Assembly (NCBI RefSeq): GCF_900182725.1
Contig: NZ_FXTO01000034.1
Span: 1 to 38,034, forward strand
DNA from: Thalassovita litoralis
GTDB taxonomy: Bacteria; Pseudomonadota; Alphaproteobacteria; Rhodobacterales; Rhodobacteraceae
Direction: 5' to 3'
Length of the DNA stretch: 38,034 bases
A program made the translations under genes and the position numbers. Below, in pieces: positions 135 through 13,558 of this stretch. Below the pieces are notes generated by a model. The model saw only the letters and a list, made by a program, of their open reading frames with translations. It searched no databases and was not told where the DNA came from. Positions within the stretch are counted from its first letter, which is position 1, and every line of letters begins with the position of its first letter.

Positions 135-223
135 TATTCGGACCAGAAATCATTGAGCGAACATTCCTATAGAATGGCCTTCCAATAGTCATGTCTCACC
201 TACTATCCCAATATTAAACATCA

Positions 224-251
224 AAATGCCCCCGCCTACGCGGGGGCATTT
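224..251 (-). terminator. Intrinsic terminator-like hairpin downstream of the S1 protease gene
   Basis: A perfect 12-bp stem (AAATGCCCCCGC pairing with GCGGGGGCATTT) closes a 4-base loop. It lies 11 bases after the stop codon of the leftward S1 protease gene, and the leftward transcript ends in a short U-rich run. It probably terminates the six-gene leftward operon. Confidence 0.75.
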
Positions 252-262
252 CCCCCGTCAGA

Positions 263-1321
263 TCAGTTCTGGCTGATCGTCTGTTCCAGCCAAGGCAGGA
301 ATTGCGACACCTTCGTATAGGCCGAGAAGATCGCATCTTCGGCGCAGGTTTTATTCGGACCAGCGGACAGACCCCAGCTTACGATACCGGCCTGAATATA
401 CGATCCGTCCTGCAACGGCACGACCAGCGGGCCGCCACTGTCCCCCTGACACGAGGTTTTGCCGCCCTCGAACGACCCCGAGCAGATCATGTTTTCGGTC
501 AGCGGCATGGGCGCGCGCTTGATCAGCTCTTCCCATGCTTTTTGCATGTCGGGTTGCGACAGCCGGAAAATCGAAGCCGCCTGCACAAAGGCCTGACTGG
601 CGGGTTTGGCGCGGGCTTTCATCAGGGCTTCGTTGCACATATCGCGCGACATCATCTGAATTTCAGCCTGATACATCTGGCTGGGGTGATTGCCACCATT
701 CACCAGCCCCCAGCCGGTCACGATAGTCGGCACACCGGCCTGATCCAGCACATCGCCGAAATTGGCATCCGGTACTTTGATGGTTTTGTAATTGGCATTG
801 GGTTTGCGGGCCAGCTTGATCAGGGCCACATCCCCATCCCAGCCATTAGGGTTATAGGTGGGATAACGATAGATACCCGATACCGGCACCAAATCCCCCT
901 GCCCCGGCGCAATGGTGTTGGTGCCGACCAGAATATTGATCTGGCGCGGGTCCAGATCAAAATATTTCCCGTTCTTGTCCTGATGGTGAATACAGTGGGC
1001 CGCCGTCAGCACCCATTGATCCAAAATCATCGAACCACCGCAGAAATGCGAATCCGGGCTGGCCTCGTATCCGGCAATCATCAGGCCAACCTGCCAGGGC
1101 CATGCGCCATTCGCCGCCAGTTCGCCGCCAACCACGCGCGACCCACTGCCATCCTGCGCCATTTTTTCGGCGCGCTCGGCTTTTTTCTTGCTATCCGCAA
1201 AATCAAAAGGCGAGGCATTTTCGCGTTCAACATGCGGGGCATCCATGTCCTGCGCTGTAACGGCAGGCGCGGTCAGCAAGGCCGCCGCTACCGCCAGACT
1301 ACCAAGGGTAAAGCGTTTCAT
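263..1321 (-). CDS. Secreted chymotrypsin-fold serine protease (S1A), zymogen-like
   Basis: The protein has 352 residues. A Sec signal peptide (about 1-24) is followed by a charged propeptide and then the activation-type junction SGSR|VVGG at residues 62-66. The catalytic triad is His109 (TAAHC), Asp164 (GDVALIKL) and Ser295 (GDSGGP), and several cysteines could form the usual disulfides. The residue at the trypsin position 189 (six before the catalytic Ser) is Thr289, not Asp, so Arg/Lys specificity is not expected. I chose the ATG at 1321 because AAAGGA precedes it and the signal peptide starts there; an upstream start would add 17 residues. It is the last gene of the leftward protease/lipase operon, 52 bases after the caspase-like gene, and is followed by a strong hairpin. 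The fold and secretion are clear; substrate and role are not known. Confidence 0.9.
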   Translation of the reverse strand: MKRFTLGSLAVAAALLTAPAVTAQDMDAPHVERENASPFDFADSKKKAERAEKMAQDGSGSRVVGGELAANGAWPWQVGLMIAGYEASPDSHFCGGSMILDQWVLTAAHCIHHQDKNGKYFDLDPRQINILVGTNTIAPGQGDLVPVSGIYRYPTYNPNGWDGDVALIKLARKPNANYKTIKVPDANFGDVLDQAGVPTIVTGWGLVNGGNHPSQMYQAEIQMMSRDMCNEALMKARAKPASQAFVQAASIFRLSQPDMQKAWEELIKRAPMPLTENMICSGSFEGGKTSCQGDSGGPLVVPLQDGSYIQAGIVSWGLSAGPNKTCAEDAIFSAYTKVSQFLPWLEQTISQN

Positions 1322-1373
1322 AAGGGGTCCTTTCATTAAGTTCTGTTTCAAATGGGCGGGTGATAGGATCATT

Positions 1374-3446
1374 TCATTCCCTCTCCTTCAGGATGACGGA
1401 ATAGCGTTTCACATCCAGTTTCGGCATATCGCCACCACCGGACAAGGACAGGGTACGGCTGGTTTCCTCGGGGGCCAATGCAGCGCCTAAATAGGATTGC
1501 AAAGCCCCGCCAGTGCCGGACAAATCGCGGGTTTGCACCGGATCGGCCAAGGCGGTCAGTTCGGTACGCGGTTCCCCGTCACGGGCGGGGGTGGAAATCA
1601 CGATCAGTTCCTCGACCCCGGCGCGGGGTGTGCCATCGGGACCGGGCGGGTTCTGGATCAGCATTCCAATCTCTTGCGTTTCGCCGAACGCAACACGATT
1701 GGACAGCCCCGGTTCAGGCCAGATCGCAGTGATCCGGTAATCGCGGTCCACATACAGAACGGTGACATCCTGCGCGGTCAGATCGCTGTTTTTCAGCGTC
1801 AGCCAAAGCTGATCACACTGGTTGACGCTGACAGGATCGGAAACATCCTGTGCATCGGTTTCAGGATCGGCACAAGCACCATCGGACAGCGGATTGCCCG
1901 GCACGCGGGACAGCGATTGGCCGATCCCGGTACTGAACAGGCTGAACCCGCCGCTGCTGCCGCTTTCGGCCAGCGCCAACGCCTGACGCAACCGAATGGT
2001 GCGGGCGGCGCGTTCCAGAAAATCCGACAGCGCCAAGGCGGGGTATTCCGCGCCGCGCAAATCCAACCGGGGGCTAGAGCCGGGGCCTTGCGGGTCCAGC
2101 ACGCCATCACGGCCCGCCAATGCCAGCGTGCCATCCACCAGATAGGGCTGCATATCGAAATCCGCCGCATTCAGGCGCACACCTTCCAGCGCATCAGCCT
2201 GCGCCAATGAGGCCAGCAAAGCCTGCAAGGCGGCGTAATCCTTACCATCCATCGCATCGGCGCGGATCGGCGTGGCCATACGGATCGGTTGCGGCAATCC
2301 GGGGCGGGTAACAGCCGCATAGCCGGTTTCGGGCAGCGGCTGATCGGTGTGCAGCGTCGCCCCATTGGCCGCCAGCGCGGTCAGCGTGGCGGTGGCCACC
2401 GGGGTTTCAGCGGTCAGGCTGTCATAGACCGCGACCTGTGCGCCTTCGGCCAGACCGTGCAGCAGACCGGCAGACAACTGATCGCCCTGCGTGGCAAAAC
2501 GGGTGGCGGGGCTGGCCGTGCCAAATACCCCGGCCTGCATCAACGTGCCCTCGCCATCGGGGGATTGGGCGGCAGGGCCATTGCGGGCCATCCCGTCCGT
2601 GGCGGCCTGTAATGCCTGCTGCCAGTTCAGATGTGCCTGCGAGGACAGCACAGACATCAGAGATTGCGTAAAATCACCGTACCAATTGCCCGGATCGGCG
2701 GCATCACCCAGCGGATATTCAAACGACCGCTGATTGGATTGCGACGAATACAGAAACGCATACTCCCCCCGCAGCGGCGGCGCGGTCGGTCCGGCATCAT
2801 TCGGCAGGTCAGCCTGCGGAATGCCCAAAGCCACCGGGTCCACATAGCGGGCGGCGGCACTTTGTTCCCCCAGCGCCCGAAATCCGGTTGCCGAATGGCA
2901 GGCATCCAGCACCGCCACCATCTGCGCCCCACGGTCCAGAATGGTCTGAAACCGCGTGGAAAGCTCATCATCGACAATGGCGTTTTCCACCGCGCCAATC
3001 GCGCCTTTCCAGCCGGTTGCATCGGCGGGCAGCAGGATTTCATCGTATCCCCCCGCCTCGTCCCCGTTCTGGTCGGGGGCCTGTGACCCGTGGCCGGAAT
3101 AGTAGAAAAACACCGTATCGCCCGCCTGTGCGGTCTGCGCCAGACGGTCCAGTTCTGCCATGATCGCCGCCCTTGTGGGGGCCGCATAAATAGCCACACC
3201 ATCAGCATGGCGCGACCCGTCCGAGGCCAGAAGCCGGATTTGCGCCGGGGCCACGCCACGATCCACCAACATTTGCGTCACCAGCCCCGTATCGTTGGCC
3301 GGGCCGCGCAGGTCTGCATCCAGATGGAAATAATCCGACACACCGATCACCAGCGCATAGGTGTCAGCCCATACAGCAGCCCCCCCAAAGGGGCCAAAGA
3401 CGAAAGCCGCTGCCATAGCGGCCAAAGGGGAAGCGCGATAACTCAT
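1374..3446 (-). CDS. Secreted caspase-family (C14, metacaspase-like) protease, paralogue 1
   Basis: The protein has 690 residues from this start. A signal peptide (about 1-27) precedes a caspase-like domain (about 29-230) with the His-Cys dyad at His119 (YSGHGSQAP) and Cys183 (DACHSATG). The acidic GYDEILLPAD stretch after the His resembles metacaspases. The long C-terminal part (about 330-690) includes a beta-rich segment (LWLTLKN, VTVLYVDRDY, ELIVIST) resembling DUF4384-type modules and shared with the paralogue at 9306-11438. The start is uncertain. The ATG at 3446 gives a good signal peptide but no clear ribosome site. An ATG at 3512 overlaps the stop of the patatin gene (TGATG) and would allow coupling, but adds 22 poorly hydrophobic residues. 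Metacaspases usually cut after Arg or Lys; that is inferred here. It lies in an operon with patatin and S1 protease genes. Confidence 0.88.
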   Translation of the reverse strand: MSYRASPLAAMAAAFVFGPFGGAAVWADTYALVIGVSDYFHLDADLRGPANDTGLVTQMLVDRGVAPAQIRLLASDGSRHADGVAIYAAPTRAAIMAELDRLAQTAQAGDTVFFYYSGHGSQAPDQNGDEAGGYDEILLPADATGWKGAIGAVENAIVDDELSTRFQTILDRGAQMVAVLDACHSATGFRALGEQSAAARYVDPVALGIPQADLPNDAGPTAPPLRGEYAFLYSSQSNQRSFEYPLGDAADPGNWYGDFTQSLMSVLSSQAHLNWQQALQAATDGMARNGPAAQSPDGEGTLMQAGVFGTASPATRFATQGDQLSAGLLHGLAEGAQVAVYDSLTAETPVATATLTALAANGATLHTDQPLPETGYAAVTRPGLPQPIRMATPIRADAMDGKDYAALQALLASLAQADALEGVRLNAADFDMQPYLVDGTLALAGRDGVLDPQGPGSSPRLDLRGAEYPALALSDFLERAARTIRLRQALALAESGSSGGFSLFSTGIGQSLSRVPGNPLSDGACADPETDAQDVSDPVSVNQCDQLWLTLKNSDLTAQDVTVLYVDRDYRITAIWPEPGLSNRVAFGETQEIGMLIQNPPGPDGTPRAGVEELIVISTPARDGEPRTELTALADPVQTRDLSGTGGALQSYLGAALAPEETSRTLSLSGGGDMPKLDVKRYSVILKERE

Positions 3447-3511
3447 AAGACATTGAATACAGGCGATTGCCCCCCAATCAAGCCTTGCAGCGTCCCTAAC
3501 GGGATTTGTCA

Positions 3512-4969
3512 TCAATTCTTGATGGGGGAAATCCGTGTGGGTTGTTTTCCCGCGCCCGTCTTCAACGCGGCCAGCGGATTGCGCCCCGGCGTCGACCGTA
3601 AGAACCCGTTCAGATCGGGATTCAACCGCGCCGCCATACGCCCGGCCTGAATCGCCATATCCACCTGTTCGGGTTTCAGCCGCAACCGGGTGGGGATTTC
3701 ATTCAGGTCTTTTTGCTGCGCGGCATCCAGATCGTTAAAGCTGATCTGCCCGACAAAGAATTTCACATCCCGGCAATTCCATCCGGCCAACGATCCGCGA
3801 TAACGCCGCACCTGTGCGTTGGACAAGGAACAGCGAAATTCCACCAGATCCTTTTGCCAATTATCCAGTTGCAGGCGCATCGCGTCATAGCCCGTGCGGG
3901 ACGCCGATCCCATCGACGCCCCTGCAATCCCCATCGCCAGACTGGCACCGCCGGGACCGCGCAATTTCTGCGACCAGCGATAGGTTTTTTCCGTTCCCGC
4001 ATCAGCCACAAGAAACAGGAACCGTTTCAGCCGCACCGCCTGTTGGGCCGTCATCGGGGCATAGCCGTTTCGGGCACGGGCGCGTTCGATTGCCAGCCCC
4101 GTCGTGCCGAAATTATCGGTAATCCCGCCATCCAGAAGCTTGACGTATTTTACCTTGTCCGGGTCGCCATAGCTTTCCAGCGCAGCAGCCTGTGCCTTCA
4201 TCGCGGCGGTGGCTTCGGGGTTATAGCGGGCGGCGGTCAGCCAGTCGGGTTCCTGATACTGGCATTCCCCCTGATGCGCCCGTAGCGTGATCGGGGCAAA
4301 AACCAGCGGAAACGCCGCCGAGGCCGCAACCGCATCCGAAATCGGGAAGCTGGACAGGTCCGAACACAGCGCATCAAAGGTTTCCGGGCTGAACAGGAAC
4401 GGCGTCTGGTTCGCCATGTCGGCGGCGTTGATCCATGTAATGACCCGGCTATGATTGTGCAGATCGCCAAAGGTCGCGCCGTGAAACAGGGTTTCATCAA
4501 GATAGCGGCCAAAGGTTTTCCGCCCATTCGCCCCACCCGACACCCCGCGCACCAGCGTCATCGGGTTCAGCGGCGAATTGGCCATGTATTTCTCTGCATT
4601 GGTCAGCAGATAATTTTCGCGGTATCCCGTCAGCGCCTTCGGCCCCTTCAGCCCGAAATACGCCGCCGTAACCGATCCGCCTGACACCCCGGTGACAAGC
4701 CGGACATCGGACAAAACGCCATCGGGGTCTTTGGCCGTGGCGGTCTGGGCGCGCAATTCTTCCAGCAAGCCATAGGAAAACGCCGAGGCCCGCATCCCCC
4801 CACCGGAAAAGGCCAGACCGATATAAACCTCTCCGTCCTTGGGGCCGATCATGGCGGTGTCCGCCAGCGGTTGATTGCGCCCTTCGGGTAATGGCTGGTT
4901 TAGCGGCGTATTCACCGCAGCGCATCCCGTCAGCAGCAGGGCCGCGCAAAGCATGGCGATTGGCTTCAT
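3512..4969 (-). CDS. Patatin-like phospholipase lipoprotein
   Basis: The protein has 485 residues. A lipoprotein signal peptide ends at the lipobox LTGC with Cys16. Residues +2 and +3 are Ala, which by the E. coli rule favours the outer membrane. The patatin fold shows an oxyanion loop (GLAFSGGGMR, about 51-60), the nucleophile motif GVSGG with Ser96, and the catalytic Asp280 in LLDGGITDNFG, so both dyad residues are present. Patatins hydrolyse acyl chains from phospholipids or other lipids. A purine-rich site (GGGGGGAAGGGA) precedes the ATG. The gene lies 35 bases after the histidine kinase and meets the caspase-like gene at its 3' end. The context suggests a lipid-directed partner of secreted proteases. 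Family call is strong; substrate unknown. Confidence 0.9.
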   Translation of the reverse strand: MKPIAMLCAALLLTGCAAVNTPLNQPLPEGRNQPLADTAMIGPKDGEVYIGLAFSGGGMRASAFSYGLLEELRAQTATAKDPDGVLSDVRLVTGVSGGSVTAAYFGLKGPKALTGYRENYLLTNAEKYMANSPLNPMTLVRGVSGGANGRKTFGRYLDETLFHGATFGDLHNHSRVITWINAADMANQTPFLFSPETFDALCSDLSSFPISDAVAASAAFPLVFAPITLRAHQGECQYQEPDWLTAARYNPEATAAMKAQAAALESYGDPDKVKYVKLLDGGITDNFGTTGLAIERARARNGYAPMTAQQAVRLKRFLFLVADAGTEKTYRWSQKLRGPGGASLAMGIAGASMGSASRTGYDAMRLQLDNWQKDLVEFRCSLSNAQVRRYRGSLAGWNCRDVKFFVGQISFNDLDAAQQKDLNEIPTRLRLKPEQVDMAIQAGRMAARLNPDLNGFLRSTPGRNPLAALKTGAGKQPTRISPIKN

Positions 4970-5004
4970 TCCCTTCCCCCCAAACCAGGAAAGCGTGGCA
5001 GCGC

Positions 5005-6360
5005 TTAGCCCGGTATCACAAGTTTAGGGCAGCTTATCTGGATCGCAAAGCCTTTTGGGGTATCCGGCAGCGTCAGCTTTGCCCCATGACGCGCGGCAAT
5101 CGCCTGCACCAGCGCCAACCCCAGCCCATGACCTGCCGTGCCACGATCCCGTTCGGCACGGGTGAAGCGGTCAAACATCTGATGACGCAGATCGTCCGGG
5201 ATGCCGGGGCCGGTATCGGACACCCTCAAAATATGACGGTCCCCTTCAGCGTGAACGGAAACCTGAATACCATCGCCGTGGTGGCAATATTTGATCGCGT
5301 TATCCAATAGATTGGTCAGCACCTGCGCCAACAGACTGCGTTCGCCCAAGACATACAAATCGGGGGTGATGTCAGCCGTGCAGAGCAGACCTGAATCGTC
5401 CGCCAGTGGCTCGTAAAGGTCGAATACCTGCTCGACCAGTTCGGACAGATTGACCGGCACCAAACCGGGGCGCTGGCCCTTGGCGGCTTCGGCGGCGGAA
5501 ATGTCCAGCAGGGCATCGAAAATCCGCACGGTGGCGCGGATGTCATCATGGATTTGCGCGACCTGCGGCCCCTGTCCGTCCAACGCAGTCAGCCGTTGCT
5601 GAATGCGGTTCAACGGCGTGCGCAATTCATGCGCGATGGCGTCAGACAGGCGATGCGTGGCGCGGTTCAGCGATTCAATCCGGTCCAGCATGGCGTGGAC
5701 GTGTTCCTGCAACACGGCGAATTCGTCATGGGACCGGGGCGCGGGCAAGCGGGCGGACAGATCCCCATCGGCCACCCGATCAGCCAGCGCGTTCAGCCGC
5801 CCGATGCGCCCCAGCACCGCGCGGGACACCAACCAGCCCGCCACCAACGCCACCCCCACCAGCGCCAGCGCCACCCAGCCGATCAGGCGGCGCAGATCGG
5901 CCAGCGTGGCCAGCGTATCAGCCCGCGACCGCGCCACCAAAAAGGGAAAGCCCCCCGGCAATTCCCGCGCCACCCCGACATAGGGCTGCCCGGCATGGTC
6001 AAAGGGCTGCGCCCCATCCGCCGTGAAATCCGTGCCATCGCGGGCCAACCCGGCAGGCCATCCCGCGATATTTCCGGCCAGCTTGGTATCGCGATCCATC
6101 AGCAGATAGATCACCTGATCCGGGGGCGTCGTTGCCACGCGAAATTCAATCGCCTGCCGCAAGGCCACAATCCGGCGCTGTTCATACAGCGCGGCAAAGG
6201 CATCCAGATCGGCCCGCAGCAATTCCGCCTGCCGCGCATCCAGCGATTGCGCCGTGACCCGGTATTGCACCGCCATCGCCGCCAGCGACAGCAGGATAAT
6301 CCCCGACGCCACCAGCAACATCACCCGTAAACTGGCCGAGCGCACCCGCGCCCCGGTCAT
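5005..6360 (-). CDS. Sensor histidine kinase of the protease-island two-component system
   Basis: The protein has 451 residues: transmembrane helix about 13-33, an extracytoplasmic sensor region of about 125 residues without a domain I recognise, a second helix about 159-182, HAMP linker, a HisKA segment with the phosphoacceptor His244 (AIAHELRTPL), and an HATPase domain with the N box (NLLDNAIKY), DTGPGIPDD and GHGLGLALV. All key residues are present. It should phosphorylate the response regulator encoded just upstream, whose stop codon overlaps its ATG (ATGA). The gene then runs into the patatin gene after 35 bases. The adjacent proteases suggest that it senses an envelope condition, but no signal can be read from the sequence. 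Confidence 0.92.
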   Translation of the reverse strand: MTGARVRSASLRVMLLVASGIILLSLAAMAVQYRVTAQSLDARQAELLRADLDAFAALYEQRRIVALRQAIEFRVATTPPDQVIYLLMDRDTKLAGNIAGWPAGLARDGTDFTADGAQPFDHAGQPYVGVARELPGGFPFLVARSRADTLATLADLRRLIGWVALALVGVALVAGWLVSRAVLGRIGRLNALADRVADGDLSARLPAPRSHDEFAVLQEHVHAMLDRIESLNRATHRLSDAIAHELRTPLNRIQQRLTALDGQGPQVAQIHDDIRATVRIFDALLDISAAEAAKGQRPGLVPVNLSELVEQVFDLYEPLADDSGLLCTADITPDLYVLGERSLLAQVLTNLLDNAIKYCHHGDGIQVSVHAEGDRHILRVSDTGPGIPDDLRHQMFDRFTRAERDRGTAGHGLGLALVQAIAARHGAKLTLPDTPKGFAIQISCPKLVIPG

Positions 6361-7061
6361 TCAGGCACCTGCACCGGATCGAAAATATAGCCTTCGCCGC
6401 GGGCGGTGTGGATGATCGGACGGCCCGCCACGTTTTCCAGCTTGCGCCGCAACCGGCCCACATGCACATCCACCACATTGGTTTGCGGATCGAAATGCAG
6501 GTTCCACACCTTTTCCAGCAATTGCATCCGCGTCACCACCGCCCCGGCATTGGACGCGAAATAGGACAGCAATTTGAATTCTTTCGGTGAAATAGCAATA
6601 TGCGTTGTGCCGACATGGACGGTGCGGGCCTTCATGCGGATTTCCAGATCGCCAAACACAATGACATCATTGTCCAGCGCCACCATGTTTTTGCGCCGCA
6701 ACAATGCCCGCAGACGCGCCCGTAATTCATCGGGATCAAAGGGTTTGGCCAGATAATCATCCGCACCCTTTTCCAGCCCCTCGATCTTGTTCTGCGCCCG
6801 CCCAAGGGCCGACACCACCATGACCAGCGCGGTTGACCCTGCCGCACGGACCTTGGCAATGGCGTCCACCCCGTCACCGCCGGGCAGCATCCTGTCAAAC
6901 AGGATCACCGCGAAATCGCCCTGCCCCGCCGCCTGTAGCCCCGCGTCATACGTCCCGCACAGCGTTGGCACGGCCCCAACATCGCGGGCAGCCTGTTCCA
7001 TTGCCTGCGCCGCAACGGCGTCATCCTCGACAATCAGGATTTTCGGGCGGGTCTGGGTCAT
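6357..7061 (-). CDS. OmpR/PhoB-family response regulator
   Basis: The protein has 234 residues. The receiver domain (about 7-118) has the acidic pair at Glu12-Asp13-Asp14, the phosphoacceptor Asp56 (LFDRMLPGGDG) and the conserved Lys in YLAKPF. The C-terminal winged helix (about 133-230) ends in typical OmpR wording (NVVDVHVGRLRRKLE, ARGEGYIF). I chose the ATG at 7061 because GGAG lies 8 bases upstream; a GTG three codons earlier is possible. It overlaps the kinase gene by 4 bases and begins 24 bases after the PDZ protease gene, so the three are probably co-transcribed. A likely target is the divergent promoter region at 8481-8638, which has a pair of TTGAAA-CCC direct repeats; that link is inference. 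Confidence 0.93.
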   Translation of the reverse strand: MTQTRPKILIVEDDAVAAQAMEQAARDVGAVPTLCGTYDAGLQAAGQGDFAVILFDRMLPGGDGVDAIAKVRAAGSTALVMVVSALGRAQNKIEGLEKGADDYLAKPFDPDELRARLRALLRRKNMVALDNDVIVFGDLEIRMKARTVHVGTTHIAISPKEFKLLSYFASNAGAVVTRMQLLEKVWNLHFDPQTNVVDVHVGRLRRKLENVAGRPIIHTARGEGYIFDPVQVPE

Positions 7062-7085
7062 GAGGTACACTCCTTCCCGGTAGAT

Positions 7086-8480
7086 TCAGAAGATAACCAC
7101 AGCGGGGTCAAGGACATTCGCGCCACCGACGGGCCGGGTACGGGTGCCGTTGCTCCAGGGGTCCACCGTGACATGCAGGGTGCGGCCATCAGGGCGGCGC
7201 ACCAGAACCAGAATCGGGCGGGATACTTTCAGCGTCGCCAGCAATTCGCTGGTGGCGGGTTGGCCGTTCACCGTCAGGATCGTGTCGCCCTGATCCATCC
7301 CGGCCAAAAAGGCAGGGCTGGCGGGGCTGATCACATCGACGGTCACGCCATCCTGGGCCAGATGCAGCCCCAACCGGGCCAGATCATAGGCGCGGATAAT
7401 CGCAATGGACCGCGATGCGCCATCGTCATCAATCGAAACGCTTTGGGTTTCCAGCCCCAGCGTCACGGCGGTTTCCATCCCGTCACGCCGCACGGTCAGG
7501 ATGACAGCCGCACCCGCGCGCCGGTCCAGCGCAAAGGCCAGATCGCCCGGTTCCGTGATCGTCACACCATCCACGGCAATGATGATGTCACCCGCGTGCA
7601 GACCCGCCCGGTCGCCAAGGCTGGCCGGGTTGACGTTATCCACCAGCACCCCCACCCCTTTGGCGACACCCAGCGCAGCGGAAATACGGCGGTCAATCGG
7701 GCGGGTGGTGACACCCAGATCAGGCACCGGCAGCAGATCGCCCGCAATCGCCCGGTCAATCAGCCACGCCGGAATGGCATAGGAAATCCCCACATACAGA
7801 CGCGACCCATCGGCCACACGGGCATTGATCCCCAGCACCCGACCCGCCGCATCCAGCAGCGGCCCACCCGAACTACCCGGATTGATCGCGGCGTCATGCT
7901 GAATATAACGCACCGGGACCGCCGCCAGAACCTGCCGTTCAGTGGCCGATACGATCCCCCGCGTCACGGTCGAGGTTGTTTGCAGCGGTGCGCCCAGTGC
8001 ATACACCTCGTCCCCCAAGGCGGGCAGGCCGGTGGCGGGGATCAGCCCCGGCCCGAAAACCGGATCGGGCAGTTCGACCACCGCAATGTCGCGCTTCTCA
8101 TCGCGCAGGATCACCGAAGCCGAAACAAGCTGCCCATCGCGGTTGCGCAGGATCACACGGGTATAGCGTTTCACGACATGGGCATTGGTGACGGCCAACC
8201 GCCCATCGCGCCACAACACGGCGGACCCCAGAAGCTTTTCATCGCCATCATCCGTATACACCACCAGCGTTGCCGCCAGCCCGCGATCCAGCATCGCTGC
8301 CGCCTGCGCCCGGTCGGCAATCGCCCCGGCCAATGTGATACACAACGCCAACAACGGCACCAACCGCAGCAGCGGGCGGCGCGACAACGGTGCGAACAGC
8401 CGCCGCGACAGGGGCATATGGGCAATGGTTTTACGCAACATCTGCGCGGGGGTCGGGATCATCGTAACGGTGCGGGGCAT
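7086..8480 (-). CDS. Membrane-anchored HtrA/DegP-like serine protease with two PDZ domains
   Basis: The protein has 464 residues. A basic N-terminal tail (about 1-36) precedes one transmembrane segment (about 37-55), so the rest faces the periplasm, either anchored or cleaved after AQA. The trypsin-2-type domain has His101 (TNAHVV), Asp131 (KRDIAVV) and Ser204 (NPGSSGGPL). Two PDZ-like domains follow, at about 262-345 and 360-440, with recognisable GD-I-VDG and GDTILTVNG turns. The ATG at 8480 is preceded by AAGGAGGG. It is the first gene of the leftward operon and lies directly ahead of the two-component genes. HtrA proteins sense misfolded proteins through PDZ domains. A role as sensor, activator or feedback element for the cascade is plausible but inferred. 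Confidence 0.9.
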   Translation of the reverse strand: MPRTVTMIPTPAQMLRKTIAHMPLSRRLFAPLSRRPLLRLVPLLALCITLAGAIADRAQAAAMLDRGLAATLVVYTDDGDEKLLGSAVLWRDGRLAVTNAHVVKRYTRVILRNRDGQLVSASVILRDEKRDIAVVELPDPVFGPGLIPATGLPALGDEVYALGAPLQTTSTVTRGIVSATERQVLAAVPVRYIQHDAAINPGSSGGPLLDAAGRVLGINARVADGSRLYVGISYAIPAWLIDRAIAGDLLPVPDLGVTTRPIDRRISAALGVAKGVGVLVDNVNPASLGDRAGLHAGDIIIAVDGVTITEPGDLAFALDRRAGAAVILTVRRDGMETAVTLGLETQSVSIDDDGASRSIAIIRAYDLARLGLHLAQDGVTVDVISPASPAFLAGMDQGDTILTVNGQPATSELLATLKVSRPILVLVRRPDGRTLHVTVDPWSNGTRTRPVGGANVLDPAVVIF

Positions 8481-8638
8481 TGGAACCCTCCTTGGTTCAT
8501 CCGGTCCCCAAACAGGTAGCAAGCAGGCTGCGGGAACTCACATGACAAGTCCGTTCATCTTTGAAATCCCGGCAGAAAACTTTTGAAAACCCGCGCCACG
8601 ACCCGCATTATCAGGGCAATTCAAAACGGAGAAACCCA
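8481..8638. promoter_or_regulatory. Divergent promoter region between the two arms of the protease island
   Basis: These 158 bases separate the start of the leftward HtrA-like operon from the rightward PPC-like/caspase pair, so both arms must start here. Two direct repeats, TTGAAATCCC (8561-8570) and TTGAAAACCC (8583-8592), lie 22 bases apart, about two helical turns. That spacing suits a dimeric regulator such as an OmpR-type protein. No clear promoter was found for the leftward arm. Confidence 0.5.
8583..8611 (+). promoter_or_regulatory. Sigma70-like promoter for the PPC-like/caspase pair
   Basis: TTGAAA (8583-8588), a 17-base spacer and CATTAT (8606-8611) match the -35/-10 consensus at 5 and 4 of 6 positions. 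Transcription would start near 8618, about 20 bases ahead of the ATG at 8639. The -35 hexamer coincides with the second direct repeat, so a regulator bound there could act directly on polymerase. Confidence 0.45.
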
Positions 8639-9295
8639 ATGGTTCCGAGTTCTTTTGCAAAGTCCTTTTTCCTGTGCGCGGGTCTGGCGCTGGCGACGGC
8701 AGCGCCACAGCCCGCCGCCGCGCAAACCCCGCTGAAAACCGCCGAACTGTCGGCGCAACTGTTCCTGACCGGGGTTGAACAATCCGATCCCGTGCTGGTG
8801 ATCGCCGCCGCGAAGCTGCGCAAATCGCTGAATTTCCGGCAGGTGGACCGCAGCCCCGACAGCGCCGCCGCAACCACCGATATGCCCGCACCACAAGCCC
8901 CGCTGAGTTGGGAACAAATGTTGGACGTGGCCGCGGGCCTGTCCACCGAGGATGACGCCCTGCTGGGGTTGATCCACGATATTCGCAGTGAAAACACCAA
9001 GGGCGTGACCACCGGACAGGTTTATTCCATCACCTCGATCCGGGCGGGGGGAACGGATACCTATCCGCCGTTGCCCTATACCGGCGGCGAATATGCCGAA
9101 GTCTACGTCGAAGGCCAGTCCAGCGCAGACCTGAACCTGTATGTGCATGACGCCAAGGGACGGCTGGTTTGTTCCGACACCGACATCAGCGCCATCGCCT
9201 ATTGTGGCTGGCGTCCGGCCTCCAGCGAAGGCTTTACCATCATCGTGAAAAACAAGGGCGGGGCCGCCTCGTCCTATTCGTTGATCACCAACTAA
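8639..9295 (+). CDS. Secreted protein with a C-terminal PPC-like beta domain
   Basis: The protein has 218 residues. A signal peptide (about 1-28) precedes a helical N-terminal part (about 30-120) that I do not recognise. The C-terminal 80 residues (DLNLYVHDAKG, VCSDTD, YCGW, FTIIVKNKGG and a final SYSLITN) resemble the bacterial pre-peptidase C-terminal (PPC) beta-sandwich found with secreted peptidases. Two cysteines in that part could form a disulfide. The ATG at 8639 has GGAG nearby; the frame is open upstream but lacks a better site. It lies 10 bases ahead of the second caspase-like gene, so the two are very probably co-translated partners. It may be a chaperone, inhibitor or targeting subunit for the caspase; the role is not known. 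Confidence 0.8.
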   Translation: MVPSSFAKSFFLCAGLALATAAPQPAAAQTPLKTAELSAQLFLTGVEQSDPVLVIAAAKLRKSLNFRQVDRSPDSAAATTDMPAPQAPLSWEQMLDVAAGLSTEDDALLGLIHDIRSENTKGVTTGQVYSITSIRAGGTDTYPPLPYTGGEYAEVYVEGQSSADLNLYVHDAKGRLVCSDTDISAIAYCGWRPASSEGFTIIVKNKGGAASSYSLITN

Positions 9296-9305
9296 GGGGG
9301 CTGGC

Positions 9306-11438
9306 ATGAACCTGCTGCATTCCACCGCTTTGGCCGGGGCACTGGCGCTGGGGGCGTTGACCGCCCTGCCCGCACTGGCGCGTGAAAACTATGCGTTGCT
9401 GATCGGGGCGTCGACCTATCCATCACTGGATCAGCGGTTCTGGCTGCGCGGCCCGGCCAACGATATTGATCTGGTCGCCACCTATCTGCAATCCAACCCT
9501 GCGATGCCATTCTCCCCCGATCACATCGCCGTTCTGGCCGACGGGATCGAGGGCGGAACGCCCCCCACGCTTCAGGCGATCCGCGATGGGTTTGCCGCCC
9601 TGACCGCCAAGGTGCAACCGGGTGATTTTGTCTATCTGCATTTTTCCGGGCATGGATCGCAGGCCCCGGCGCTGGACCCGTCCACAGAAACCGACGGGCT
9701 GGATGAACTGTTCCTGCCGGTCGACATTGGCCCGTGGGAAGACAACACAGGCACGGTACAGAACGCGCTGGTCGACGATGAAATCGGCGCGCTGATCGGG
9801 GCCATACGGGACAAGGGCGCGGATGTCTGGGTGGTGTTCGATAGTTGCCATTCCGGCACCGCCACCCGCGCCGCGCCTTCGGTGGACGATGAAATACGAA
9901 TGCGCAAACTTGGCCCCGAAGCCTTGGGCATTCCCGCCGATCGGATGATCGCCGCCGAAGGGACCAGCCGCGCCTTGCCCGATCCGCATGACGCGCCCCC
10001 GGCAGCAGTGGAAATGTCCGCCACACCAGTGGCCAAACCCGGTAAACTGGTGGCGTTCTTTGCCGCACAAACCAACGAAACCACCCCGGAAAAAAACATG
10101 CCCAAGGGCAAGGCCGGGCGGCGTTTGCAGGGGGTGTTCACCTATACGCTGTTTGAAACGCTGGCCGAACGGCCCGGCGTGACCTATCGCCAACTGGCGC
10201 AGGAGGTGCTGCGCAAATATGCGGCACTGAATCTGGCCCGCTCCACCCCCCTGTTCGAGGGCGATCTGGACGATCCCATCTTTGGCACCGGGGCGGCGGG
10301 GCGCGTGCTGCAATGGCCCGCCACGGCCAAGGACGATGCCCTGACCCTGCCCGCCGGGCGACTGCACGGGCTAAGCGAGGGCGAAGAGCTGATCCTTCTG
10401 ACCTCGCCCGCCGATCTGGATGATGCGGCGCTGGCCACCTACAAAGTCACGCAACTGGATCAGTTTTCCGCCACGCTGGCCCCGGTGGATGCCGCCCCGG
10501 ACGCCCTGCCCAAGGGCGCGGTGTTGCGCAAAACCTCGGCCACGCTGGACCTGTCGCTGGCGGTGGCCTTGCCCGCCCCCGGATCGGTCCCGGCAACAGC
10601 GCTGAAGGCCGCGATCCAATGGGCGCAGGACAATGCCCGCCTTGGTCCCCGCATCCGCTTTGTCCCCGCCGGGGATGACGCCGACCTGCGGCTGGCAGTG
10701 ATCCCCGACAGCCCGCGCCCCGATGCGATCTGGTTCATGCCCGCCTCCGGGCTGGTTCAGACAGACGGGTTTGACCGGCTGTTTTCCATCTCGACCGCCG
10801 ATAAGGACGCCGAAACGCTGGGGCAGGTGTTTTCCGAAAACCTGTCCTACATGTCCAAGGCGCTGAACCTGATGAAAGTGGGGGCAGCCACCAGCGGCAA
10901 GGCACTGGATGTCAGCGCCAGCCTGACCCGCGCCCGGTTTGATGCCACATCAGAAGCAGTGATCGACGGCAGCCATGCCGCCATCCCCTCCGGCGGGGTC
11001 ACGCGGATGGTGCCGGACGATGTGATCGGGCTGGACCTGTCCAACCCCAACGACACGCCGGTGGATTTCAACATCCTCTATGTGGGATCGGATTATTCGA
11101 TCAGCTTCATGGGCAATGGGCGGCTGCATCCGGGCGACCGCCTGACCGAAGATTTCGTGCTGGTCACGGACGATGCCTTTGGCCGCGACAGGCTGCTGGT
11201 CATCGTATCCCCTGCCGACCCCCAATCTGCGGTCGAAGACCTGTCGTTTCTGGATCAGCCCCCATTGGAACGCACCCGCGCCGTGGGCGACGGCGCGCGC
11301 GGCCTGACCGGATTACTGGACGAAGCCGGGTTTGGCCAAACCACCCGCGCCGCTGTCAGCCTGTCCAGCCGCAAGAAAAAGGCACAACCCGCGCCCGCGT
11401 TTTTGCAATTTGAAATCGACACGGTGCCAAAGCCCTGA
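9306..11438 (+). CDS. Secreted caspase-family (C14, metacaspase-like) protease, paralogue 2
   Basis: The protein has 710 residues. The signal peptide (about 1-25) ends in ALA. The caspase-like domain (about 27-300) contains His116 (FSGHGSQAP) and Cys181 (FDSCHSGTA), plus the acidic DGLDELFLPVD stretch typical of metacaspases. The C-terminal half includes a beta-rich module (NILYVGSDYSI, LLVIVSPAD) matching the corresponding part of the caspase at 1374-3446, and a basic segment (SSRKKK) near the end. The order of parts, size and export signal are the same in both, which suggests an old duplication. AAGGGGG precedes the ATG. The gene follows the PPC-like gene by 10 bases. Arg/Lys specificity is expected from the family, not shown here. 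Confidence 0.9.
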   Translation: MNLLHSTALAGALALGALTALPALARENYALLIGASTYPSLDQRFWLRGPANDIDLVATYLQSNPAMPFSPDHIAVLADGIEGGTPPTLQAIRDGFAALTAKVQPGDFVYLHFSGHGSQAPALDPSTETDGLDELFLPVDIGPWEDNTGTVQNALVDDEIGALIGAIRDKGADVWVVFDSCHSGTATRAAPSVDDEIRMRKLGPEALGIPADRMIAAEGTSRALPDPHDAPPAAVEMSATPVAKPGKLVAFFAAQTNETTPEKNMPKGKAGRRLQGVFTYTLFETLAERPGVTYRQLAQEVLRKYAALNLARSTPLFEGDLDDPIFGTGAAGRVLQWPATAKDDALTLPAGRLHGLSEGEELILLTSPADLDDAALATYKVTQLDQFSATLAPVDAAPDALPKGAVLRKTSATLDLSLAVALPAPGSVPATALKAAIQWAQDNARLGPRIRFVPAGDDADLRLAVIPDSPRPDAIWFMPASGLVQTDGFDRLFSISTADKDAETLGQVFSENLSYMSKALNLMKVGAATSGKALDVSASLTRARFDATSEAVIDGSHAAIPSGGVTRMVPDDVIGLDLSNPNDTPVDFNILYVGSDYSISFMGNGRLHPGDRLTEDFVLVTDDAFGRDRLLVIVSPADPQSAVEDLSFLDQPPLERTRAVGDGARGLTGLLDEAGFGQTTRAAVSLSSRKKKAQPAPAFLQFEIDTVPKP

Positions 11439-12853: not shown

Positions 12854-13264
12854 TCAGTCCAAAGGCCCCCGAACCGGAGATGCGGACATCATCAAACCCA
12901 GACAGGCCACGCCCCCCGCAATCCCAACCAACACAACAGGCGAAGCGGAATATAACAATTCAGACACCGCGCGGGCTAAAGCGGTGGCAAACCCACCGAT
13001 ATGCGGCTGTGTCAGGGCCGCAAACCATAAAAGCCCATACCATGCCCCTGCTGTGACCAAACAGGTGACAGTTGCGGCGCGGTTCGTGGAGCTGGAACAC
13101 CGCAACCACACGGCAACCGTCAGGAAAATCGGGAAAAATGCCGGCAGGGCACTCACCCCCTGCCGGCCAGTGATGCTGAACTCCGCCCAGACAGCCAGGG
13201 GAACGGTCACGGCTGCGGCGGACAGGGCGGCGACCAAAACGGAAAGGGAAAATGATTTGGTCAT
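12854..13264 (-). CDS. Hypothetical four-helix membrane protein
   Basis: The protein has 136 residues, mostly hydrophobic, with probable transmembrane segments at about 7-27, 39-55, 64-84 and 105-125. I recognise no family. The ATG is preceded by AAGGAA at a usable distance, which favours this frame over the longer but unlikely frame on the other strand. It has no tight operon partner: purU begins 339 bases further left and rpiB is divergent. Confidence 0.55.
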   Translation of the reverse strand: MTKSFSLSVLVAALSAAAVTVPLAVWAEFSITGRQGVSALPAFFPIFLTVAVWLRCSSSTNRAATVTCLVTAGAWYGLLWFAALTQPHIGGFATALARAVSELLYSASPVVLVGIAGGVACLGLMMSASPVRGPLD

Positions 13265-13558
13265 AAGGAAAATTCCTTGGTTTCAACATGCTACGATCAT
13301 AGCCTTGGCTGATTGCCTGCTCAAATGACGAAAGCTGTCATGTCGTTCCAAGGACAGAAACATGGGTTTGCGGGCACGACGCGCGGGGCGCACCCCGGCA
13401 ACCAAACCGGGCCATCCGCCGGGGTCAGGCCAACCACCATGACCAGAAAAACCGGCGGTTTCGTCAATGTCTGGACCTTGGGCCGGGCTGTGGTATCTAT
13501 AAGGGTCTGAATATGCGGGCGGCGCGGTCGCCCTGCCCTTCAACACAGGATCTCCTTG

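Follow-up and report, generated by a model that had tools for sequence, protein, structure and literature searches.

An island of apparently exported caspases, a trypsin-fold zymogen and a patatin under predicted two-component control in Thalassovita litoralis

What would two caspases do in a bacterium if they are exported and encoded beside a signalling pair of their own? This question is raised by eight adjacent genes at positions 263-11438 of contig NZ_FXTO01000034.1 of Thalassovita litoralis. The contig was analysed over its complete length of 38,034 bases (called the window here), and one of its ends lies just past the outermost gene, TRYP. To our knowledge, bacterial caspases have been discussed mostly as cytoplasmic effectors of death or defence, and most have no assigned partner, trigger or substrate. 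At the level of sequence, a regulated and exported set of proteolytic and lipolytic enzymes is well supported for this island. With a little more than even confidence, we read it as a regulon for envelope proteolysis that is self-contained and has a two-component system of its own in control. A further reading, possible with the balance against it, is an extracytoplasmic caspase cascade. A single two-component system of a mobile regulon would then induce together, and export, all caspase-superfamily proteases found in the genome (two C14 and one CHAT); the caspases, specific for Arg/Lys, would activate a zymogen of trypsin fold, itself incapable of self-activation, beside a membrane lipase.

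All eight genes were found where the original prediction had placed them, and seven of the family assignments agreed with Pfam. The minus strand carries TRYP, CASP1, PAT, HK, RR and HTRA, the plus strand the divergent PPC and CASP2. TRYP (263-1321; start chosen in a frame open to 1372) is an apparently exported S1A chymotrypsin-fold zymogen (Pfam Trypsin 3e-48; 16 sequences aligned) and CASP1 (1374-3443; start chosen in a frame open to 3515; Pfam C14 5e-26) a similarly exported C14 caspase with the motifs SGHG and DACHS. PAT (3512-4969; Pfam Patatin 1e-15) is a patatin-like phospholipase with conserved motifs and a lipobox-like N-terminus. HK (5005-6360) is a membrane sensor histidine kinase with HAMP, HisKA and HATPase domains, and RR (6357-7061; frame open to 7070) an OmpR-family response regulator with response regulator and Trans_reg_C domains. 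HTRA (7086-8480; start chosen in a frame open to 8522) is a DegP-like serine protease with a Trypsin_2 domain, two PDZ stretches and a hydrophobic N-terminus. On the plus strand, PPC (8639-9295; start chosen) encodes a small, apparently exported protein whose C-terminal domain is conserved, and CASP2 (9306-11438; Pfam C14 4e-15) a second exported-looking C14 caspase, the long C-terminal region of which matches no Pfam family. The six leftward genes are as tightly packed as had been described: with the preferred starts the gaps are approximately 24 bp (HTRA-RR), 35 bp (HK-PAT), 68 bp (PAT-CASP1) and 52 bp (CASP1-TRYP), and RR and HK overlap by 4 bp. The listed TTG start of CASP1 at 3515 is probably wrong and the ATG at 3443 likelier, because the bases at the TTG make up a copy of the operator described below.

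The predicted export signals on the effectors recurred in nearly all aligned proteins. Export was called from a hydrophobic stretch within the first 80 residues and not by a signal-peptide predictor, and the counts, which include the window proteins, were 16/16 for TRYP, 16/16 for CASP1, 14/14 for PAT, 14/15 for HTRA, 17/18 for PPC and 17/19 for CASP2. The alignments of island proteins leave out proteins of 150 aa or less, by which the CASP1 of locus L033 and two HTRA entries were lost as artefacts of start picking.

Common control of the units is indicated by a palindromic operator, RTGACAAAtsCnGTCA, which precedes the heads of transcription units and hardly ever internal genes. The divergent HTRA|PPC regions have CACATGACAAnnCCGTCAT in common. 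The matrix was built from 15 of these HTRA|PPC sites, one of which is the main operator of the window (CACATGACAAGTCCGTTCAT, 8539-8558, plus strand), and was then used to scan all other regions. Counted among the upstream entries are the window's own and a small number of hits to unrelated paralogues (such as an HK in L052 and an RR in L047). Sites of at least 13 bits were found for 16/17 HTRA entries and 16/18 PPC entries, which share one and the same site. Outside the training set, 15 of the 17 CASP1 entries have a site of at least 9 bits and 11 one of at least 13 bits, and 6/9 PPC2 entries reach at least 13 bits. The CASP1 copy in the window (TTGATGACAAATCCCGTTAG, 3496-3515, minus strand, 13.9 bits) overlaps the PAT stop codon and likewise lies outside the training set. 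Six further HTRA|PPC regions that did not contribute to the matrix scored 28.7 (L039), 24.6 (L184), 26.7 (L185), 19.0 (L191), 24.7 (L236) and 24.7 bits (L243). Among the internal genes no site of at least 9 bits was found upstream of TRYP (0/16), HK (0/18), RR (0/18) or CASP2 (0/19), while PAT had such sites in 2/14 entries and none of at least 13 bits (0/14). Random reversed stretches of 330 bp reach at least 9 bits in 1 % of cases and at least 13 bits in 0 of 3000. The 465 kb of loci contain 48 sites above 13 bits (15 of them training sites); simulated sequence yields 4-6 and reversed sequence none. In genome G020, which retains PAT, PPC and CASP2 alone of the set, an RR orthologue was not found (best score 111 bits versus 308-381 in the five other genomes searched), and no site above 9 bits was present in its 20-kb island locus. 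We regard it as highly probable that the units are jointly controlled by the island's own two-component system, the response regulator being predicted to bind the operator. This agrees with the shared regulation proposed originally, and two of four CASP1-TRYP modules detached from the island carry the operator at 13 bits or more (G034, 22.3 bits; G121, 15.8 bits).

The gene set is also conserved as a set. A CASP2 search of 198 genomes of the family gave matches in 25, of which 16 were strong (E < 1e-70, a cut set after inspection of the list). We counted 17 strong-CASP2 loci (L033-L036 and L038-L050; 13 from the genomes and four from titled records), leaving aside detached or paralogue loci (L051-L054), two genomes with small contigs (G022 and G028) and a duplicate (L037 of L038). 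The five-gene core HTRA-RR-HK|PPC-CASP2 is kept in 16/17 of these loci and all eight genes in 9/17; RR identity across the 16 core loci is 56-88 %. The genes were thus mostly found together and not scattered, as the original prediction required of homologous neighbourhoods, though the CASP1-TRYP pair stands apart in four genomes (G034 in L051, G121 in L052, G490 and G515), the last two of which also carry the core apart from it. Comparison of the 16 strong-CASP2 genomes with the other 182 gave 13 versus 0 for CHAT (E < 1e-50), 13 versus 0 for TRYP (E < 1e-49), 13 versus 2 for PAT (E < 1e-70) and 15 versus 1 for PPC (E < 1e-25), with cuts set after the lists were seen and Fisher values inflated by physical linkage and shared ancestry. 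The TRYP cut takes in G028 (2.5e-50), and two of the 13 TRYP genomes (G005 and G028) hold paralogues of 33-34 %. A chance neighbourhood was rejected on the grounds of the conserved core and the co-occurrence, and a phage origin was rejected with a single weak phage record. In one further genome (G192, L191 on G192:C3) PAT-HK-RR-HTRA|PPC is present with no CASP2 match, and its island seems to be in decay because the PPC match holds two in-frame stop codons.

Among 72,556 plasmid records, 54 matched CASP2, and Pseudosulfitobacter accounts for 46 of these. We examined two plasmid neighbourhoods, both of this genus. On the P. pseudonitzschiae plasmid CP070882 the island is enlarged by two CHAT genes and a second PPC gene, along with genes for a TPR protein of 908 aa and for a protein of 478 aa that matches no Pfam family. 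The other plasmid, of 65 kb, belongs to Pseudosulfitobacter sp. DSM 107133 from the North Sea; its gene order is HTRA-RR-HK-PAT-CASP1-TRYP-TPR-PPC2-CHAT, and PPC-CASP2 lies divergent to it. The gene set therefore apparently can travel as one unit. The carriers are mostly marine bacteria. Beyond the family, 398 genomes of the phylum were searched; eight extra-family genomes matched, and the core was present in none of the five examined (L186-L190). These loci include a trypsin-like gene (31 %) approximately 3 kb away in L188, a CHAT fragment in L186 and a distant kinase in L189, and in Aquibium CASP2 adjoins Dsb/Ccd genes.

The catalytic motifs are intact in 16/16 CASP1, 19/19 CASP2, 16/16 TRYP and 18/18 CHAT proteins, and both caspases contain a p20 domain with the His/Cys dyad above the Pfam cut-off. 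TRYP has the S1A fold and intact His/Asp/Ser motifs, with SR|VVGG as its activation site in the window. The predicted activation residue is Arg in 11/16 and Lys in 5/16 aligned sequences. Residue 189, which we take to be the base of the trypsin pocket in the usual numbering, is Thr in 15/16 (the window protein included) and Gly in 1/16, never the Asp of basic specificity that the best-scoring solved relative has. TRYP should therefore show no preference for Arg/Lys and not activate itself, since its activation residue is Arg or Lys and its pocket lacks Asp189. Both caspases align to metacaspases, which also make up most of the solved structures related to them by sequence (4f6o, 7qp0). In the available part of PMC4357240, the Arg/Lys pocket of TbMCA2 is formed by Cys92, Asp95, Ser156 and Asp211; mapped through metacaspase alignments, the positions of Asp95, Ser156 and Asp211 are conserved in 16/16 CASP1 and 19/19 CASP2. 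Orthocaspases are reported to cleave after positively charged residues in the part of PMC6426788 available. A putative metacaspase-type pocket beside a zymogen without Asp189 and with a predicted Arg/Lys activation site makes the caspases candidate activators of TRYP, and we consider this activation possible, at somewhat less than an even chance.

The predicted regulon extends beyond the island. A genome search for the motif with at most one mismatch gave 19 matches versus 3 for the reversed control, and the best of them outside the window is an exact match of 26.5 bits on another contig, approximately 40 bp upstream of a TPR-CHAT protease. This protease, which has an export-like N-terminus, is the sole CHAT match in the genome, and the two C14 proteins of the island are its sole C14 matches. 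Several other near-matches in this genome fall inside coding sequence. We scanned 18 of the 21 places with CHAT (E < 1e-50) across the carriers, and sites of at least 12 bits were present in 6/18 versus 0.3 % in the null. CHAT is unlinked to the island in 7/13 carriers, this genome included, and lies within approximately 10 kb of it in 6/13; at E <= 0.001 there are 25 genomes with CHAT matches, and 12 of these do not belong to the 16 strong-CASP2 genomes. In G005 the CHAT site is flanked by CHAT on one side and a PPC gene on the other. A third PPC paralogue, that of G100, has a site of 27.8 bits, and one of 16.4 bits accompanies a short G183 frame that we read as PPC-like. Two other sites were noted. 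One of 23.5 bits (L233 4456, G005) lies 140 bp before a gene read from its sequence as rpoH-like, and one of 24.7 bits (L225 4911, G175) lies 158 bp before a 1643-aa open frame that runs off the stretch.

Regarding the remaining proteins, PAT shows GxSGG in 14/14, DGG in 12/14 and the lipobox pattern in 11/14 sequences. HK and RR score under the curated NCBIfam cut-offs, including those of CpxA and BaeS, among the matches listed (25 of 82 models for HK and 25 of 93 for RR). HTRA has the S1C protease and PDZ domains, with 225.6 versus the 416.2 bits cut-off of the curated DegP/Do model. The HTRA of G183 (L039 10259-11605) has lost the catalytic His and Ser with the remainder conserved, like a pseudo-protease, and may therefore have a non-catalytic role. 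The C-terminal tail of HTRA (7086-7130 in the window) around AN(V/L)LD, with a hydrophobic end, is common to the compared sequences and could possibly be a self-ligand of its PDZ domains. The label 'PPC-like' given earlier to the small protein is weakly borne out, as PF04151 matches weakly in 3 of 25 aligned homologues (best 0.0048) and the window protein matches no Pfam family, the PF04151 cut-off not being reached. In the alignment of 25, Cys189, Tyr213 and Asn218 of its C-terminal domain are invariant and Cys178 nearly so. A second PPC paralogue lies at a contig end (G000:C40:102-725) and TRYP lies near the start of the present contig, so the two may be neighbours in the genome, as in related loci.

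We propose that an envelope signal would lead HK to phosphorylate RR, which would bind the TGAC-N7-GTCA operator and activate the units. HTRA-RR-HK-PAT would form the first unit and provide positive feedback; the others would be PPC-CASP2, CASP1-TRYP and, in genomes that have them, the CHAT genes and the second PPC gene. The products would reach the periplasm, PAT as a lipoprotein. The caspases would cut TRYP after Arg or Lys, directly before the conserved VVGG-like N-terminus. Active TRYP, preferring non-basic residues, would spread the cleavage while PAT would attack lipids. The likeliest purpose would be a staged answer to damage of the envelope, by which the latter is cleared or remodelled; lysis as its end point we consider unlikely. 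The purposes suggested originally, namely lysis, competitor killing or surface remodelling, are conjectural. Of the 'proteolytic and lipolytic cascade' originally suggested, the regulated exported set is what the sequences bear out, and the cascade we infer from a zymogen without Asp189 that is predicted to be cut after Arg/Lys, beside caspases with a putative metacaspase-type pocket. If true, an extracytoplasmic caspase cascade would be, by analogy, a bacterial counterpart of animal zymogen cascades. The set offers a candidate regulator, a predicted operator, a named candidate substrate and a predicted cleavage site, which leaves regulation and proteolytic order open to direct test in marine bacteria that are not pathogenic.

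Several observations weigh against the envelope proteolysis regulon or against the caspase cascade within it. OmpR-type regulators usually bind direct repeats and inverted repeats such as this operator are unusual for them. The HTRA|PPC and CASP1 sites of the window deviate from the search pattern at two positions and do not belong to the 19 matches. The detached CASP1 has a site of 8.5 bits in G515 (L192) and none of at least 8 bits in G490 (L193); none of at least 8 bits precedes CASP1 on the DSM 107133 plasmid, and the other three heads on CP070882 are weak (9.3 to 10.6 bits). L050 (G184) has RR and yet no operator at HTRA|PPC. G020 holds two exact motif copies elsewhere in its genome. Twelve of the 18 CHAT loci lack a site of at least 12 bits. 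The 16 island genomes contain 29 exact copies and the remaining 182 contain 53 (1.8 versus 0.29 per genome), with 6 copies of the reversed control motif in all 198, by which the motif is enriched in carriers and not exclusive to them. In ten stretches around further exact matches, most precede genes without a traceable tie to the system; two have a PPC-like gene downstream (one by reading alone), one an rpoH-like gene, and one a DegP-like gene nearby (G028). PAT is missing in 4/16 core islands (L036, L042, L044, L047), and TRYP and/or CASP1 in four (L041, L042, L043, L050), L041 having no adjacent TRYP and L050 neither gene. Distance trees agree in part (RR-HK 0.91, PPC-HTRA 0.18) and, being noisy, were not used as support. 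The position of Cys92 of TbMCA2 is Pro in both caspases. Trypsin-family matches in the genome number five. Besides TRYP and HTRA they comprise two long proteases, which we read as Deg type, and a trypsin-like protease of 277 aa that looks exported (L248, G000:C1:129107-129472) with Asp six residues before the likely Ser. The last could be an alternative activator of TRYP, and because of it we lowered the chance given to caspase activation slightly, from nearer even.

A rival account is ordinary envelope quality control. Misfolded envelope proteins would be detected by the two-component system, and HTRA, both caspases, TRYP and PAT would break down damaged proteins and lipids side by side, with no zymogen cascade. 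A DegP-like HTRA in one unit with the two-component system, the sites before the rpoH-like gene of G005 and near the DegP-like gene of G028, and a Pfam scan of the eight genes that gave no killing or immunity family all fit it. It leaves unexplained, however, a zymogen with a conserved activation site, three caspase-superfamily genes under one operator and the patchy, partly plasmid-borne distribution, and an HTRA without catalytic His and Ser in G183 would be odd for a degradative core. We consider this account rather unlikely.

The export-like N-termini on all enzymes could alternatively point to secretion for digestion on the surfaces of algae or particles, with enzymes leaving the cell to feed on or modify host material. 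The source given in 44 of the 54 CASP2 plasmid records is an organism that we take to be a diatom, but these records seem to stem from few sampling efforts. Caspases are poorly suited to digestion, PAT looks membrane-anchored, and no transporter family was found by Pfam among the eight genes, although transporters do occur elsewhere on the plasmids; digestion thus appears very unlikely. An anti-phage or anti-predator system, where the sensor responds to an attack on the envelope and the proteases and lipase then destroy either the cell or its attacker, would match the patchy, plasmid-borne spread and a PADLOC caspase model (1e-22). Caspases, CHAT proteins and patatins act in bacterial conflict systems. 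For caspases this is also described in the available part of PMC7159879. Against defence, no NTPase or nucleotide-sensor family was found among the eight genes by Pfam, the kinase apart; the effectors all look exported, and expression driven by a two-component system would be slow. The EACC1 caspase model NF047832 gave 38.7 and 30.4 bits versus a cut-off of 140 bits, for which membership in the EACC1-associated conflict caspases was rejected. Defence is in our view highly improbable.

How does the envelope proteolysis regulon compare with known systems? CpxRA and CssRS are envelope-stress two-component regulons with HtrA/DegP proteases, and the island resembles them in that one apparent control covers an OmpR-type regulator, a membrane histidine kinase and a DegP-like protease. 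It differs in that HK and RR fall far under the cut-offs of CpxA, BaeS and the other models listed, and in its output, where caspases and CHAT predominate together with a trypsin zymogen and a patatin. Granzyme/caspase and complement are eukaryotic zymogen cascades; a trypsin-fold zymogen that requires a cut by a second protease of other specificity recalls them, but only by analogy, and the activators here would be caspases. TPR-CHAT is known from CRISPR type III-E and gasdermin loci, and caspase/CHAT conflict systems are built on NTPase modules or CRISPR effectors and are mostly cytoplasmic, unlike the exported-looking island effectors, whose eight genes gave no such NTPase module in the Pfam scan. 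The combination of caspase-superfamily peptidases with trypsin-like peptidases or TPR is shared with the conflict systems in the available part of PMC7159879. The island caspases are like prokaryotic orthocaspases and metacaspases (C14) in their His/Cys motifs and putative metacaspase-like pocket, and unlike the described ones they are apparently exported, paired, extended by a long C-terminal region and adjoin a two-component system. An alphaproteobacterial pseudo-caspase described in PMC6426788 carries a trypsin-like domain, an arrangement different from that of the island, and the main text of PMC3501461 contains neither 'trypsin' nor 'patatin'. The set had been called unfamiliar as a described system, and no description of it was found in the open-access literature searched, with subscription papers and preprints outside the scope and the searches partly aimed elsewhere.

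Other features of the window are less specific. A sigma70-like promoter, TTGAAA-17-CATTAT (8583-8611, plus strand), lies 24 bp downstream of the main operator; such matches are equally common by chance (5 promoter-like sites versus 4.5 expected in the consensus scan). A hairpin of 13 pairs resembling a terminator follows TRYP (223-252, minus strand), in a scan that found 22 such sites versus 13.9 expected. An operator-like site of 22.4 bits (13322-13341, plus strand), with similar sites at L033 12186 and L034 12323, stands near rpiB, purU and a 136-aa open reading frame (12854-13264) that has no Pfam match and is hydrophobic by eye. The gene or genes at this site are possible additional members of the regulon. 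The orientation of purU in the window is inverted relative to L033-L035.

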